Assembly: GCF_014334325.1 (NCBI RefSeq)
Contig: NZ_JACSET010000003.1
Location: forward strand, 124,001-188,000
Length of the DNA: 64,000 bases
Direction: 5' to 3'
Origin: Treponema sp. Marseille-Q4130
GTDB lineage: Bacteria; Spirochaetota; Spirochaetia; Treponematales; Treponemataceae
Shown: positions 48,202 through 60,833 of the stretch, piece by piece
Position numbering within the stretch: the first letter of the stretch is position 1
Layout of the letters: every line of letters starts with the position of its first letter
Notes under the pieces: model-generated
The model's database searches: none
Told to the model about the DNA's origin: nothing
The model's input: the letters and a program-made list of their open reading frames with translations, nothing else
Program-made: the position numbers and the translations under genes

Positions 48202-49473
48202 ATGACTTTGAAAAAAACGGCAGCAGTGATTTTCTGTGCATCTCTTCTTGCCGGTGCTGTATCTGCCGAAGAGCTGACGGTGGACAGCGCGGTGCAATAC
48301 GCGATCGAAAACAATATCTCCGTGAAAAAAGATAAAATCACGCTCGACGCACTCAAACGTGCAAAAAATCATTCGTGGAACGGCGTGAGTCCGAGCGCGT
48401 CCGTCAGCGCCAATATGCTTTTTCCCGCTGCGGGTGATGCGCGTCAATACGATTACAATTTATCGATTCAAGGCTCTCTCAACTTTGCGCTTTCCCCGTC
48501 CCTCTATTCGTCCGTAAAAACCGCCGCTCTCAATTACGAAAACGGACTGCTTACCTACGACGAAGCTCTGCGCTCGATCGAACTCAAAGTTCGCAGCGCG
48601 TTTTATCATCTCCTGTACGAGCTTGAATATATCGAACTGCAGAGGCGCAATCTCGAAACCGCCGGCCGGCAGTACGAGCAAAATATGAAAAAATACAAAA
48701 GCGGTCAGCTTTCGGAACTCGATATGCTGACGAGCCAAGTAAAATACGAACGGTTGAAGCCGGTACTCGAATCCGCCGAGATAACCTTTGCCAACGATTC
48801 GGCATCATTCAAACAGATGCTCGGTCTCGATCAGTCAGCCGAACTCGCGCTTTCCGGTTCTCTCGCCGCCGCTTGTTCTTTCGGCGATATAAGTGTCGAA
48901 GTCGATGCGGAAGATACGCCTGTGATTCGCACCGGAAAAAACAGCGTAAAGATTGCGCAAGCGGCATTGCTCGCGCGGAGATTTGCCGCGTGGGGGCCGA
49001 CGCTGAGCGCGGGATGGACGTACGGCAAATCGAAGACGAATATCGCGGATGATTTTTCGACGACGAATGCGTTTTCGGTCGGCGTTTCGATTCCGCTCGA
49101 CGGATACCTTCCGTGGTCGAAGGGAGCCGATTCCGTTGCTTCGGCAGCGGACAGTCTGAAGACGGCGGAACTTACACTCGAAAACAGCCGTACGACGCTT
49201 GCGGTGCAAATCGATAACAGCGTCAAACAGATACGGCAGATACAGTCGCAGATCGCATCGCTTCAGGCAAATGTCGGCTTGGCGCAAAAGTCGTACAATA
49301 TGACGAAAGACGCATACACTCACGGTTCGCGAGATTTACTTACGCTGCAGACTGCGGCGGATTCGCTTTTGAACGCGCGTACGGATCTTGCGCAGCAGGA
49401 ATATACGCTTATTACGAAGATGCTTGATCTGGAATACACGCTCGGCGTTCCGTTCGGCTCTTTGGGCAAATGA
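48202..49473 (+). CDS. TolC-family outer-membrane efflux protein
   Basis: A 423-residue TolC-family protein with a signal peptide (KKTAAVIFCASLLAGAVSAE). It shows two internally repeated halves of helices and short strands: ELTVDSAVQYAIENNISVKKD and KSYNMTKDAYTHGSRDLLTLQTAADSLL are the helix-turn regions of the two repeats. It forms the trimeric outer-membrane channel of the efflux operon. The counterpart in Borrelia is BesC, and the gene order channel-adaptor-permease is the same as in that genus. Confidence 0.88.
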   Translation: MTLKKTAAVIFCASLLAGAVSAEELTVDSAVQYAIENNISVKKDKITLDALKRAKNHSWNGVSPSASVSANMLFPAAGDARQYDYNLSIQGSLNFALSPSLYSSVKTAALNYENGLLTYDEALRSIELKVRSAFYHLLYELEYIELQRRNLETAGRQYEQNMKKYKSGQLSELDMLTSQVKYERLKPVLESAEITFANDSASFKQMLGLDQSAELALSGSLAAACSFGDISVEVDAEDTPVIRTGKNSVKIAQAALLARRFAAWGPTLSAGWTYGKSKTNIADDFSTTNAFSVGVSIPLDGYLPWSKGADSVASAADSLKTAELTLENSRTTLAVQIDNSVKQIRQIQSQIASLQANVGLAQKSYNMTKDAYTHGSRDLLTLQTAADSLLNARTDLAQQEYTLITKMLDLEYTLGVPFGSLGK

Positions 49474-49509: not shown

Positions 49510-50433
49510 ATGAAAAAATCGACGGTGATCGTAATCGTTGTACTTGCTGCGGCTTTGGGTGTCGGCGGCTATGCTTTCTACAGTACGCGGCATACGGCTG
49601 CGATGCGCGGCAGGGCGCCCTCTCAAACGGTTTTGACGGTACGTACGCAGGTTGCGGAAGTCGTAACGCTGCACGACTATATCAATACGAACGGCGACAT
49701 AGAAGCGGTAAACTCGGTCACCGTGTATCCCGATATCGGCGGAAAAATCGTGAGCACGAACGTAACGCTCGGCTCTCCCGTCCGTCGCGGGGACGTGATT
49801 GCCCGAGTAGATCCGTCCGAGCCGGGCAGCAGTTATACGCTGAGTCCCGTGCTCGCTCCGATCAACGGCAGCATTATTAAAACGCCGCTCAAAGTCGGAA
49901 CGAAGGTTACGACGTCGAGCGCAGTTACGACGATCGGCGATATTGCGAGTTTGCAGATCACCGCGAAGATCCCGGAGCGCTACGTCGCTTCTCTCCGCAC
50001 GGGATTGAAAGCGGAGATATCGCTTGAAGCATATCCCGATGCCGTGTTCGCCGCAACCGTGACGCACGTGTCGCCGGTACTCGATGTCAACGCGCGCACG
50101 AAAGAGATCGTTTTGACATTCGACGAAAACGATATGCGGATCAACGCAGGCATGTTCGGCAAAGTGAAATTGTATACGCTCGACTACGAAGGAGCCGTCG
50201 CCCTGCCGTCGGATGCGGTCGTTACGAAAGGCGATAAGCCGTATCTCTACGTCGTCAAAAGCGACGATACCGTCGAACAGCGGGAAATAACGCTCGGACA
50301 ATCGGTTGACGGCGTCGTGCAGGTTTTGTCGGGCATAGAAGAAGGAGAACGCGTCGTCGTCGAAGGCGGGCAAGTGCTTTCGAACGGTGTGAAAGTGCGC
50401 GACATATCGAGCGCGGTTCGAGGTAAAGAATGA
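49510..50433 (+). CDS. RND efflux periplasmic adaptor (BesA-like, no hairpin)
   Basis: A 307-residue membrane-fusion protein with an N-terminal anchor (KKSTVIVIVVLAAALGVGGYAF). The biotinyl-lipoyl halves (GDIEAVNSVTVYPDIGGKIV and SPVLAPINGSIIKTPLKVGT) are joined by only a few residues, so the long alpha-helical hairpin that usually touches TolC is missing. The beta-barrel domain (SLQITAKIPERYVASLRTGL, KEIVLTFDENDMRINAGMFGKV) and a membrane-proximal domain follow. Such hairpin-less adaptors are known from Borrelia BesA. The gene overlaps the permease start by 4 bp. Confidence 0.87.
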   Translation: MKKSTVIVIVVLAAALGVGGYAFYSTRHTAAMRGRAPSQTVLTVRTQVAEVVTLHDYINTNGDIEAVNSVTVYPDIGGKIVSTNVTLGSPVRRGDVIARVDPSEPGSSYTLSPVLAPINGSIIKTPLKVGTKVTTSSAVTTIGDIASLQITAKIPERYVASLRTGLKAEISLEAYPDAVFAATVTHVSPVLDVNARTKEIVLTFDENDMRINAGMFGKVKLYTLDYEGAVALPSDAVVTKGDKPYLYVVKSDDTVEQREITLGQSVDGVVQVLSGIEEGERVVVEGGQVLSNGVKVRDISSAVRGKE

Positions 50434-53400
50434 GTTTATCGCGGAAAACGCTCGAACATCCCGTTCTCGTACTCATCGTATTTGTGCTGCTCGGCATCAT
50501 CGGCATATCGAGTTTTAATAATATTGCAATCAGCCTCTTTCCCGATATCGACAGTCCCTATGTCATGGTGTTGACGACTTATTCGAACGCCGGCCCGGAG
50601 TCAGTGGAAAAATCGGTGACGAAAGTGCTCGAAAGCAGTCTCATCAGCGTCAACGGACTCAAAGAGCTCACGTCATCGTCATCGGAAGGTTCGAGCATGG
50701 TGTTTCTCGAATTCGATTACGGAACCGATTTGGAATCGGCTGTCAACGACGTGCGCGATAAACTCGACCGTGTCAAACGTTCATTGCCCGACGGTGCATC
50801 GACTCCGAGTATTTTTAAAATGGATGCGTCCGCCATGCCGATCATGCGTATTGCGATGCGGGGAAACCGTTCGACGGACGATCTTCGGCAGATAGCCGAA
50901 GACGACGTTATCGATATCCTCGAACAGACGGACGGCGTCGCCGAAGCGAGCGTTTCCGGCGGACGCGCGAAAATCGTCCGTGTCGAAATCTCAGAAAACA
51001 GGCTTGCCGCTTACGGTCTCAACATATCTGCCGTATCGTCCGCGCTCGCAAAGCAAAACTTCGAACTCGGCGGCGGAAAGATCACCGAAGGAAAAATGAA
51101 TTACGTCGTGCGCACGACAGGCGAATATTCGTCCGTTGCTGAAATAGACGATACCGTTATCACAACGGTGAACGGATACGACGTAAAGCTCAGCGATATC
51201 GGAAACGCGTTTATGGGCTACGAAGACGCATCTTCGACGGTCTACATAAACGGGGAGCCGGGCGTTTACGTTTCGGTTACAAAGCAGTCCGGTACGAATT
51301 CGGTGACCGTTGCAAACGCGACGTATAAAAAAATCGAGCAAGTGCAGGCGCTCCTTCCGTCCGATATTACGCTTGAAATCATCTCGGACGATACGACTGC
51401 GATCCGCGATACGATCAGTACGCTCGTGACTTCCGCGTGGCAAGGCTTGCTGCTCGCGGTTATCATTCTGTTCTTTTTTTTGCAGAATTTTAAAAGCACG
51501 CTTATCATTTCCATATCGATTCCGCTTTCCCTTGTCATTACGATCATGTGTATGTCCTTTGCGGGGATCACGATCAATATCATGACGTTGACCGGTCTCA
51601 TCCTCGGCGTCGGTATGATCGTCGATGCGTCCATCGTTATGATAGAAAACATCTATGCGTACCGATCGCGCGGTGCGAAGCCGAAAATCTCCGCGGCACT
51701 CGGTTCGCAGGAAATGCTCATGTCCGTCGTTTCCGGAAACCTCACGACGATCTGCGTATTCGTTCCGTTTTTGTTTTTTCTCAAAGACCTTGAAATGATG
51801 GGGCAGATGTTCAAGGGGATAATATTTACCGTTGTCATCGCGCTCGTGTCGAGCTTGTTCGTCGCGATTTTTCTCGTACCCGTACTGGCCGGCAAATTTT
51901 TACCGCTTTCAAATAGAGCGGAAAAGCCGGTACGAAACCGCGTTTTAAAAGCGATGTACGCTTCGTTTCAAAATGTCATAGATGCTCTTACGAAAGTGTA
52001 CCGCAGGGGATTGAAGAGCGCTCTCGATCACCGGGCGGTGACGATCGTCGTGAGCGTGAGCGTTCTCTTTATGGCGCTCGCCCTTTTCCCGACGCTCAAA
52101 ATCAATATTATGGGGCGCGGCGGCGGAGACGACAGCGTGACGCTCAACGTGACGATGCCGACAGGAACCTCGCTTGCGGAAACGACGAAAGTCGTGCAAG
52201 CCTTTGAAACGATCACAAAGAATGAAATACAGGGCTATACGACGCTGATCATGAGCGTCGGGACGGGCGGCAGACGGTCGAGCGCGTCGACGTATACGGG
52301 TTCGCTTTCGATCCGCCTTCCCGAAACGAGTAAACAGGTCGATACATCCGAAACGATTCAGAAAAAGCTTCGCGCGCACTTCGACGAATTTGCGGACGCG
52401 CAGCTTTCGTTCGGCGCGGGTTGGCGCGGTCAGATTTCGGGAAGCGATATCGTCATAAAGGTTCGTTCGGACGACCTTGAAACGGCGCTTTCGGTTTCCG
52501 ACAAAATAAAAGACGTGATGGAAAAAATCGATGCCGTAGGGGAAGTGACGATCGACACGAAAAAAGGTTTGCCGCAAGTCGAAGTCGTCATCGATCGACA
52601 GCGGGCATACGCGTTCGGCGTCGACGTTACGACGGTTGCGCGCGAAATCAATTACGCGATGAACGGCGTTACATCGACGGTATACCGTTCGAACGGCAAA
52701 GAATACGATGTCGTTGTCATGTACCGGCCGGAAGACCGCGACAAAGTGTCCGACCTTGAATCGATTTATGTGAGAGGCACGAACGGCATGGTGAGCGTTG
52801 CGAATTTCGCTTCGCTTAAAAAAGGGCTCGGACCTGTCAGCATCAATCGGGAAAATCAAAGCCGCGTCATAGAAGTGTCGGCCGATATCATATCCGATGA
52901 AAATGCGAACGTCGTCGAAGATGAAATCAAGTCTCGTATCGCCGATACCTTTGTCATTCCCGAAAACGTCACCGTAAGCTACGAAGGTTCGTGGAGCGAC
53001 GTGCAAAAACAGGGGCGCGTTTACGGTTTGATCGCTCTTATGGCGCTGCTTCTCGTGTTCGGCGTTATGGCCGCGACTTACGAATCGTTTAAAGCGCCGC
53101 TCATCAATATGATGACGATCCCGTTTTTAATAATCGGAGTCGTCTTTATCTACAAGCTTACCGGACAGACGCTGTTGATGACGTCGATGGTCGGCATCAT
53201 CATGCTCGTAGGTATCGTCGTCAACAACGGTATCATCCTCGTCGACTATACGAACCTTCTCATCGACCGCGGCATGAAGATGAAAGAAGCGTGCCTCGAA
53301 GCGGGTGCGAGCAGGCTTCGTCCCGTGCTCATGACGACGCTTACGACGATCCTCGGTACGCTTCCGATGTGTTTCCAATTCGAAGGAACCGCTCAAATGG

Positions 53401-53852
53401 TACAGCCGATCGGCCTTTCGATCGTCGGCGGTTTGACGTCGAGCACTTTCGTCACGCTCTTTATCATTCCCGTGCTCTATTCTCTTGTCATGAAAGAAAA
53501 AAAATCGATCGATACCGGTGCCGCACAGGCTGTCACGGACTTCGTTCAAAGCGGAGAAGCTGTCGATATCGAAACCGATAACGTGCAGGCCGGCATCGTC
53601 GCAAATCAATCCGTCGAAGACGATATCGTCGAAACGCTCGAACAGCTTATACCGGATATCCGCTATACGATTATTCCGACGGTGAACGGTAGAGGCGGTG
53701 ACAACTATAAGCTCGGAACTACGACGTGGCCCGAACAGAATTTTATGATGATCGCATATATGAAACGAAAAGATGTCGCGACGATTTCGGCGGCTGTTCG
53801 AATGCTGAAGAAAAAATTTCCGAAAGAGGGGATAAAGCTCTTTCTTATGTGA
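50430..53852 (+). CDS. RND efflux permease with fused C-terminal PII-like domain
   Basis: An 1140-residue RND pump of the AcrB/HAE type. It has twelve helices in two halves, each with a large periplasmic loop. The N-terminus SRKTLEHPVLVLIVFVLLGI and TM4 GLILGVGMIVDASIVMIENI, with a single Asp at about 399 where Gram-negative AcrB has two, give the family. PLINMMTIPFLIIGVVFIYKL and GIVVNNGIILVDYTNLLIDR belong to the second half. After the last helix, a tail of 115 residues contains IIPTVNGRGG (about 1081-1090), LGTTTWPEQNF and KKKFPKEGIKLFLM, matching the small PII-like proteins often encoded beside RND genes. So here the sensor domain is fused to the pump, cytoplasmic in location. Confidence 0.9.
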   Translation: MSLSRKTLEHPVLVLIVFVLLGIIGISSFNNIAISLFPDIDSPYVMVLTTYSNAGPESVEKSVTKVLESSLISVNGLKELTSSSSEGSSMVFLEFDYGTDLESAVNDVRDKLDRVKRSLPDGASTPSIFKMDASAMPIMRIAMRGNRSTDDLRQIAEDDVIDILEQTDGVAEASVSGGRAKIVRVEISENRLAAYGLNISAVSSALAKQNFELGGGKITEGKMNYVVRTTGEYSSVAEIDDTVITTVNGYDVKLSDIGNAFMGYEDASSTVYINGEPGVYVSVTKQSGTNSVTVANATYKKIEQVQALLPSDITLEIISDDTTAIRDTISTLVTSAWQGLLLAVIILFFFLQNFKSTLIISISIPLSLVITIMCMSFAGITINIMTLTGLILGVGMIVDASIVMIENIYAYRSRGAKPKISAALGSQEMLMSVVSGNLTTICVFVPFLFFLKDLEMMGQMFKGIIFTVVIALVSSLFVAIFLVPVLAGKFLPLSNRAEKPVRNRVLKAMYASFQNVIDALTKVYRRGLKSALDHRAVTIVVSVSVLFMALALFPTLKINIMGRGGGDDSVTLNVTMPTGTSLAETTKVVQAFETITKNEIQGYTTLIMSVGTGGRRSSASTYTGSLSIRLPETSKQVDTSETIQKKLRAHFDEFADAQLSFGAGWRGQISGSDIVIKVRSDDLETALSVSDKIKDVMEKIDAVGEVTIDTKKGLPQVEVVIDRQRAYAFGVDVTTVAREINYAMNGVTSTVYRSNGKEYDVVVMYRPEDRDKVSDLESIYVRGTNGMVSVANFASLKKGLGPVSINRENQSRVIEVSADIISDENANVVEDEIKSRIADTFVIPENVTVSYEGSWSDVQKQGRVYGLIALMALLLVFGVMAATYESFKAPLINMMTIPFLIIGVVFIYKLTGQTLLMTSMVGIIMLVGIVVNNGIILVDYTNLLIDRGMKMKEACLEAGASRLRPVLMTTLTTILGTLPMCFQFEGTAQMVQPIGLSIVGGLTSSTFVTLFIIPVLYSLVMKEKKSIDTGAAQAVTDFVQSGEAVDIETDNVQAGIVANQSVEDDIVETLEQLIPDIRYTIIPTVNGRGGDNYKLGTTTWPEQNFMMIAYMKRKDVATISAAVRMLKKKFPKEGIKLFLM

Positions 53853-58360: not shown

Positions 58361-58669
58361 TCAATCTGCAACAGGAAATTTATTTTCTATCATCTCTCGG
58401 ACTTTAGGCAACAACTCTTCATCAAAGAATTTCCGCATATCTCTGCGGTTTTTGCTGGCGTTGCGTAGGAACAAGTCTGCCGGATGGATTTCAAGGGCCT
58501 CCGCCAGTCTGCGAATCAAGTCAAAAGAAGGTGTCGTTTTTCCCGCTTCAATTCCGCTTATTGTACTTTTGCCGCACTCGCAAATACCTGATAACTCCAA
58601 CTGCGACAAAGAGTTCCGATTCCTATAGAAAATCAAATTTTCCGCAAATTCCGATTTTATGTTACTCAC
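58361..58669 (-). CDS. XRE-family regulator, possible restriction-system controller
   Basis: A 102-residue protein with one HTH_3 (Xre/Cro) domain at about residues 8-65: NLIFYRNRNSLSQLELSGIC, then GKSTISGIEAGKTTPSFDLIRRLAEAL. The tail is helical. It diverges from the restriction-modification genes, and two 10-bp inverted repeats fill the 133-bp gap between them, as for C (controller) proteins. Control of the mod gene is inferred. Confidence 0.85.
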   Translation of the reverse strand: MSNIKSEFAENLIFYRNRNSLSQLELSGICECGKSTISGIEAGKTTPSFDLIRRLAEALEIHPADLFLRNASKNRRDMRKFFDEELLPKVREMIENKFPVAD

Positions 58670-58802: not shown

Positions 58803-60833
58803 ATGCAGACCGACACACAAAAATACAACGAATCAATAAAACCGAACAGCAAAGAAATTGAAATCTTAAAAAAATATTTTCCGCAGTGTTTTTCAAAGCC
58901 GGCGACCGACGAAAACGGCACTGCCACAAAAGAACATTTTGACACGGAAAAACTTGCAGAACTTTTGAACAAAGACGAAGTAGATATAAAAAAAGAAGGT
59001 TTTACGCTGAACTTCCTCGGGAAAAGTTATGCCCGCTATCAGGCAAATCTTGACAGCGAAACGGTGATTGTGCCGGACGAACAGAATGCGCATATTCAAA
59101 GCGAAAATGTGTACATTGTCGGCGACAATCTGGACGCTCTGCAGCACCTTAAATATTCCTACGCCGAAAAAATTAAATGCATTTATATCGACCCTCCCTA
59201 CAACACGGGCAAGGAAGATTTTGTTTACAACGACAAGTTCGGTTTTACGGCAAAAGACTTTGTCGAAAAGCTCGACGTAACGGAAGAGGAAGCGGAGCGT
59301 ATCTGCAGCATGAACGGGAAATGCACCCATTCCGCATGGCTTACTTTTATGTATCCGCGCCTTGCCCTTGCACGTGAACTTTTGCGTGATGACGGCGTGA
59401 TTTTTATCAGCATTGACGACAACGAGCAGGCGAACTTAAAGCGGCTTTGCGATGAAGTTTTCGGGGAAGGGAATTTTGTTGTTTGTTTTCCTAGAGTTAC
59501 AAAGAAAGGTGGGAAGTCGTCTGATTCAACAGCAAAAAATCATGATTATGTTTTGATGTATGTAAAAAATTATCAAAAAGCTAATCTTGTCGGGGTTACA
59601 CATACTGATGATAAATATTGTAATAAAGATGATTTTTTTGAAGAACGAGGTTTTTATAAATTAAACCAAACTTTAGATTATGATTCTTTAGGCTATGTTC
59701 AATCTCTTGATTATCCGATTGAAATTGCTGGAATGACATATTATGCAGGTGGAAGTGAAGACGAATACGAAAAAAGACAGAAAGGACTTCACGGACGTGC
59801 AGACTGGGGATGGAGATGGAGTAAGGACTTGTTTGAATTTGGATACAAAAATGGTTTCATTGTTAGTAAAAATAGCGGTGAACGCCCCAGAATATACACA
59901 AAAACTTATCAAGGTGTAAAAATTCAGAAAATTAACGGACAATATAAAGTTGTAAAAATTGAAAGAACAAAACCTCTTTCTACACTTGAATTGATAGAAA
60001 ATGAATTTTCAAACGATAATGCTACAAAAGCTATTGTTGATGTAATAGGTAAAGGTGTCTTTGAATATACAAAACCTCCGGCATTAATTAAGAGGCTTCT
60101 TAATTTAGTTGGAAAAACAGATATTCCAGAAATATTATTAGAAAACTTAGCCTCATGTTCCACTTCCGACATCATCCTCGACTTTTTCTCCGGCAGTGCG
60201 ACAACCGCCCACGCCGTAATGCAGCTCAATGCTCAAGACGGCGGTAGCCGCAAATTCATCATGGTTCAGCTTGATGAACACGTAAAAAAAGGCAGCGAGG
60301 CGGAAAAAGCCGGATACAAGACAATCGACGAAATCGGTCGCGCGCGTATCCGCCGCGCCGCTGAAAAAATCAAAGCGGAAAATCCGAAGACAAAAGCGGA
60401 CTTAAGCTTTAAAACTTTCTACTTGAAATCAATGCCGCAAAACACGCTCGATAAAATCAAAACATTCAATCCGAACTCTCTTTTTACAAGCGACGGCGAC
60501 ATTGTAAAAACGCTCGGCGAAGATACGCTGTTTCAAACGTGGCAGATAAAAGACGGATTCGGTTTCAACTGTAACCGACAAAAAATCGATATTGCGGGCT
60601 GCGCCGCGTATGTTTCGGAAGATGAAAAAATCGGAAAATATCTGTATTTGCTTACGGGAATGGAAGAAGAATCCGTCAAAGAGCTTATTCGTAAAATCGA
60701 AAGTTTTGAACTGACCGTCGATAAAATTTTCGTCTACGGTTATTCTTTCGATTTTGACGCGCTTAATTCGCTTTCGACAAATCTAAAGACGCTCAAAAAC
60801 CGCAACCCCATTGAGCCGATCATAAGGTACTGA
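58803..60833 (+). CDS. Type III modification DNA methyltransferase (Mod)
   Basis: A 676-residue N6-adenine methyltransferase of the type III beta class. Motif IV DPPYNTGKEDFVYND (residues 130-144) and motif I DFFSGSATTAHAVMQLN (about 459-475) lie in the beta order (IV before I), with a 310-residue stretch between. That stretch holds the target-recognition region. Nucleotides about 59480-60150 are visibly more AT-rich and have other codon use than the two ends, which suggests that the target-recognition region was exchanged. It modifies one strand of an asymmetric site and supplies specificity to the nuclease. No long simple repeat for phase variation is seen. Confidence 0.9.
   Translation: MQTDTQKYNESIKPNSKEIEILKKYFPQCFSKPATDENGTATKEHFDTEKLAELLNKDEVDIKKEGFTLNFLGKSYARYQANLDSETVIVPDEQNAHIQSENVYIVGDNLDALQHLKYSYAEKIKCIYIDPPYNTGKEDFVYNDKFGFTAKDFVEKLDVTEEEAERICSMNGKCTHSAWLTFMYPRLALARELLRDDGVIFISIDDNEQANLKRLCDEVFGEGNFVVCFPRVTKKGGKSSDSTAKNHDYVLMYVKNYQKANLVGVTHTDDKYCNKDDFFEERGFYKLNQTLDYDSLGYVQSLDYPIEIAGMTYYAGGSEDEYEKRQKGLHGRADWGWRWSKDLFEFGYKNGFIVSKNSGERPRIYTKTYQGVKIQKINGQYKVVKIERTKPLSTLELIENEFSNDNATKAIVDVIGKGVFEYTKPPALIKRLLNLVGKTDIPEILLENLASCSTSDIILDFFSGSATTAHAVMQLNAQDGGSRKFIMVQLDEHVKKGSEAEKAGYKTIDEIGRARIRRAAEKIKAENPKTKADLSFKTFYLKSMPQNTLDKIKTFNPNSLFTSDGDIVKTLGEDTLFQTWQIKDGFGFNCNRQKIDIAGCAAYVSEDEKIGKYLYLLTGMEEESVKELIRKIESFELTVDKIFVYGYSFDFDALNSLSTNLKTLKNRNPIEPIIRY

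Follow-up and report, generated by a model that had tools for sequence, protein, structure and literature searches.

Why does an efflux pump gene of Treponema run on beyond the last membrane helix of its product? The gene encodes a permease of the resistance-nodulation-division (RND) type and lies in a 64,000-nucleotide stretch of Treponema sp. Marseille-Q4130 (contig NZ_JACSET010000003.1, positions 124,001 to 188,000), referred to here as the window. We found that in this gene an RND efflux permease is fused in frame to a PG0541-family protein, which relatives encode next door. An earlier reading, made from the letters alone (the sequence-only reading), had described the extension as a PII-like sensor built into the pump.

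A permease with a PG0541-family tail

The pump body gives a full-length match to ACR_tran (PF00873; profile positions 4-1020 of 1021), and in the full-length model the last long pump helix ends at about residue 1020. An extra tail does follow, as the sequence-only reading had it, although its size is nearer 120 residues (1021-1140) than the 115 claimed, and the folded part covers 1051-1140. All three motifs named by that reading are located in the order given: IIPTVNGRGG (1081-1090), LGTTTWPEQNF (1095-1105), and KKKFPKEGIKLFLM (1127-1140). Residues 36-119 of the 120 in the tail match NF045581, the model for PG0541 family transporter-associated proteins (E 4.6e-23, 81.0 bits against a cut-off of 45), so the tail is not chance sequence. 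The features of the locus are as follows.

50430-53852, +, fused gene for RND permease and PII-like domain, 1140 amino acids (aa), a single open reading frame (ORF) from ATG to TGA
50430-53489, +, RND permease body, residues 1-1020 (Pfam ACR_tran 6-1020, E 2.2e-228)
53490-53579, +, linker, residues 1021-1050, of low model confidence (block predicted local distance difference test, pLDDT, 49-51); length variable but in frame among relatives
53580-53849, +, PII-like domain of the PG0541 family, residues 1051-1140 (in isolation, NF045581 82.2 bits, cut-off 45; pLDDT 88.8, predicted template modeling score, pTM, 0.80; PII-like matches by Foldseek and VIA-align)
53685-53738, +, T-loop equivalent, residues 1086-1103 (NGRGGDNYKLGTTTWPEQ), of low model confidence mid-loop
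53817-53834, +, B-loop equivalent, residues 1130-1135 (FPKEGI), a short loop that lacks the GDG found in classical PII
48202-49473, +, outer membrane efflux protein (TolC-like), 5′ gene of the probable pump operon (Pfam OEP, E 7e-42)
49510-50433, +, periplasmic adaptor (membrane fusion protein; Pfam HlyD_D23, E 2e-20, and HlyD_3, E 5.8e-11)

The genes thus run from outer membrane efflux protein through adaptor to fused pump, after which comes a convergent glycosyltransferase-4 gene; the last 4 bases of the adaptor gene are also the first 4 of the pump gene. The nearest pump found (L036, Treponema socranskii subsp. socranskii) is 99% identical. Like the AcrB/AcrD-type permeases, the pump carries ACR_tran over its whole body and shares their fold: The full-length model matches AcrD/AcrB structures (Foldseek E 3.1e-64), and a CusBA entry is also among the 50 matches listed. 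It differs from them in its identity to the listed solved pumps (about 22%) and in scoring under the cut-offs of the curated AcrB-type models. With the CusA/CzcA metal RND model TIGR00914 it reaches 458.3 bits, under the 701-bit cut-off.

Separate and fused forms among relatives

We surveyed 132 loci (L036-L127 and L138-L177). The sample is nonrandom: 80 are the best 80 of 272 relatives in one named-genome scan, and the other 52 were picked from the matches of two other genome scans. Five repeat loci (L116, L117, L119, L123, and L125) were left out, and there are no other identical copies among the 132. RND frames were recognized by length and C-terminal motif rather than by Pfam, and adjacency means a same-strand RND-type frame whose end lies no more than 200 bases before the domain and no more than 60 bases inside it.

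The sequence-only reading noted that small PII-like proteins are encoded beside many RND genes, and the survey agrees: In 105 of 115 distinct separate loci the domain gene stands directly behind an RND gene, at a median distance of 2 bases. Among the nonadjacent loci, four (L066, L067, L075, and L173) have no RND frame in the piece examined, five (L074, L078, L106, L114, and L124) have one further away, and L176, although counted here, does have an overlapping RND frame. Within the genus, 172 of 196 genomes have the family above its cut-off, against none of 14 control genomes. A scan with alignment A1 matched 118 of 296 genomes of the phylum, eight of them with a frame of at least 1140 aa. The window's own genome has the gene a second time, as a stand-alone copy downstream of a different RND gene (L002:1480-1791 (-), L155). 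With the stand-alone NF045581 proteins the fused domain shares its family, above cut-off, and the usual place behind an RND gene; the difference is that they come mostly from a separate small gene, whereas here the domain is a covalent part of the pump. Many small genomes of one family (f7) often have the PG0541-family gene at ∼137-151 kb of contig 1, and at one locus of this family (L157) it lies behind an RND frame.

The fused form is not unique to this genome. Sixteen of the 132 loci are fused, and after removal of four repeats the survey of spirochaete pumps, which the sequence-only reading had proposed, yields 12 distinct fused loci besides the window. Their frames measure 1139-1158 aa from the first Met and recur in separate assemblies, including those of T. 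socranskii ATCC 35536 and 35535 (L036 and L037), which rules out a one-off assembly error; another fused frame (G201) sits on a 2.8-Mb contig. Candidate fusions at three other places were rejected: In G036, frame 723 overlaps and a separate RND frame of 1088 aa lies beside it, and L021 and L028 each have a separate RND frame.

Quick IQ-TREE trees were built on the first 1015 residues of Spirochaetota pumps and contain several long branches. Locus L040, fused but cut by a contig end, was left out of them; in the 84-row tree, thinning removed 30 of the 63 separate Treponema rows, and L173, which lacks an RND frame, is absent. The fused rows, 12 in number, occupy three separate positions: the T. 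socranskii clade (eight rows), L079, and L120-L122, the last from three genera and two families. The fused state needs three changes in both the 75-row and the 84-row tree, and a single fused clade is rejected (P = 2.6e-06, approximately unbiased test). Three gains are possible, or fewer gains plus losses.

The tail domain evolves under purifying selection. For the window compared with L037, the ratio of nonsynonymous to synonymous substitution rates (dN/dS) is 0.058 in the body, 0.303 in the linker, and 0.099 in the tail; between L038 and L039 the values are 0.093, 0.506, and 0.035. Against the close L036 the tail of the window has a dN/dS of 0.172, from 8 changes only, and between L036 and L118 the tail value exceeds that of the linker, where dS is saturated. 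The linker spans 23-51 residues in 12 fused genes (the window included) and changes only by whole codons: L118 has gained 19 residues by insertion, and L037 has lost one. These whole-codon shifts, together with the selection on the domain, indicate that the fusion is real and maintained.

Could the stop codon between two genes have been lost neutrally, the long frame being tolerated while a free PII-like protein still arises from an internal start or by proteolysis? We consider this improbable. Since the two genes lie side by side in most of the relatives surveyed, a small mutation could suffice to join them, and GTG stands at the domain start in six of 12 fused genes (window, L036, L037, L042, L079, and L118), with TTG near that point in L121 and ATG in L122. 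However, a start codon is not kept there in all fused genes: The candidate reads GTT in L041 and GCA in L038 and L039. Judged by eye, no strong ribosome-binding site precedes it in the window. The linker, moreover, has held its frame through its changes in length, and the fusion is common to a clade of eight pumps.

Fold and conserved loops of the tail

The AlphaFold2 model of the tail has a ferredoxin-like double beta-alpha-beta fold, as the sequence-only reading had anticipated, and the solved structures closest to it are the PII-like proteins TTHA0516, SbtB, CPII, and GlnK. By predicted fold the tail would therefore be PII kin; by sequence, the apparent kinship runs through its family. All 62 members tested match NF045581, and two stand-alone members that pass it (L203 and L021) also pass Pfam P-II, at 40.8 and 30.7 bits (cut-off 25). 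Neither of the two outcomes that would have counted against the sequence-only reading, a model lacking this fold or a lack of any PII-like profile match, was obtained. At E ≤ 1, P-II matches 47 of the 62 (best 1.4e-05), the tail of the window not being among them. DUF3240 (PF11582), the other family suggested by the sequence-only reading, must be dropped, as it gave no Pfam match above cut-off; its absence from 149 Spirochaetota genomes is uninformative, since control genomes lack it likewise. The search of PHROGs gave a single weak match (E 0.024), the sequence search of solved structures no PII match, the plasmids no match, and the viral contigs 64 pattern matches with no relative among them. 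In the window's own genome, a 215-residue protein (L178:1156-1803 (+)) passes P-II at 28.5 bits; it has two PII-like halves by eye and adjoins a multi-pass membrane protein.

Across the 62 members, N1059, S1061, K1094, E1102, N1104, and E1133 are invariant, as are seven of the 18 positions of the T-loop equivalent; helix 2 is the most variable element of the domain. The B-loop region (residues 1127-1136) reads KKKFPKEGIK, without the canonical GDGK. Among ten spirochaete PII proteins taken for comparison, GDG is present in all ten and GDGK in eight.

A proposed regulator on the pump and its rivals

The fusion of two genes, above all when repeated, is good evidence that their products cooperate. 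The fusion points to a direct partnership of RND pumps with PG0541 proteins, a family named only "transporter-associated," and suggests that these proteins, so far little studied, exert control over the pump while attached to it. By analogy, we put at roughly 0.6 the probability that the domain, like GlnK with AmtB or SbtB with SbtA, docks beneath the pump trimer and tunes its activity.

From its position after the last transmembrane helix, the tail should be cytoplasmic. RND pumps are trimers, and because SbtB on SbtA shares a threefold axis, the same geometry may hold here: Three tails would come together below the RND trimer as a trimer of the PII kind, both centered on one threefold axis, and the conserved T-loop would then contact the cytoplasmic side of the pump and adjust its activity according to a cytoplasmic signal, with the flexible linker serving as a tether that holds the regulator permanently at the pump. 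The tail may also sense a ligand and gate export, as the sequence-only reading proposed. In the SbtA complex, the SbtB trimer lies on the cytoplasmic face of the SbtA trimer with its T-loop inserted (PMC8352866). SbtB-SbtA and GlnK-AmtB resemble the proposed complex in placing a PII fold at the cytoplasmic face of a transporter; unlike it, they consist of separate proteins and act on an importer and a channel, not on an RND exporter.

Several results weigh against such a regulator. The Pfam search gave no match of any kind, P-II included, for the window's own tail, and hhalign of alignment A2 against the ten spirochaete PII proteins gave a probability of 2.1%. The T-loop equivalent is not the most conserved part of the domain (mean entropy 1.05, vs. 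0.91 for strand 1 and 0.75 for the B-loop turn). The B-loop equivalent is short and lacks GDG, and the tail of the window has no His or Cys, so there is no sign of either a classical nucleotide site or one for soft metals. The full-length model, finally, is of moderate quality (pTM 0.59).

These missing sites would fit a purely structural domain that binds no signal, such as a trimer clamp or an assembly or stability factor, and a permanent covalent link would remove regulated dissociation. We hold such a role to be rather unlikely: Known PII relatives are mostly ligand sensors, and the six named invariant positions exceed what a pure clamp would seem to need. It is less likely still that the tail senses a metal on behalf of a metal-exporting RND pump, the role proposed for Geobacter PII-NG, which is encoded beside CzcABC (PMC7726332). 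The adaptor does carry CusB/HlyD-type domains, and the same source says that PII-NG genes cluster with CzcABC. The pump, however, falls under the CusA/CzcA cut-off (and the AcrB-type ones too), its best solved folds are AcrD/AcrB-type despite the CusBA match, and the tail offers no His or Cys. As described there, PII-NG (e.g., GSU2134) is likewise a PII-type protein encoded with an RND pump; it differs in being a separate protein from the first gene of its operon, a comparison made by description and not by sequence.

If the domain does gate the pump, RND exporters like this one would come with their own cytoplasmic control, where the known control of such pumps is mostly transcriptional. More tentatively, many spirochaete RND pumps, and perhaps those of the Bacteroidales that gave PG0541 its name, may be regulated after translation by a dedicated docking PII-like trimer that reads a cytoplasmic signal, with up to three lineages having fixed the partnership by fusion. 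The fused protein offers a complex of fixed 1:1 stoichiometry, open to purification and imaging.

The literature searched, largely without subscription journals and including PMC10434189, gave no described RND-PII fusion, which is not proof of absence. Other papers cover fused regulatory domains on transporters (PMC10710835) and a Borrelia membrane protein with a PII-like domain (PMC6516651), and two of three that name PG0541 give it only as a conserved hypothetical or hypothetical protein (PMC1887533, PMC4493947). Three other Treponema genomes have single-chain frames of Amt with a C-terminal PII domain (L192:91-1845, L196:100-1845, and L198:142-1839); Pfam confirms both parts in L192, and the other two rest on a P-II match and inspection by eye. 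They share with the window the genus and the C-terminal place of the PII domain on a transporter; they differ in having a GDGK B-loop and in that the transporter is one for ammonium. Elsewhere in the window, a putative DNA methyltransferase of a restriction system (ORF 58803-60833) and, adjoining it on the opposite strand, a small helix-turn-helix ORF (58361-58669) were recognized by eye.
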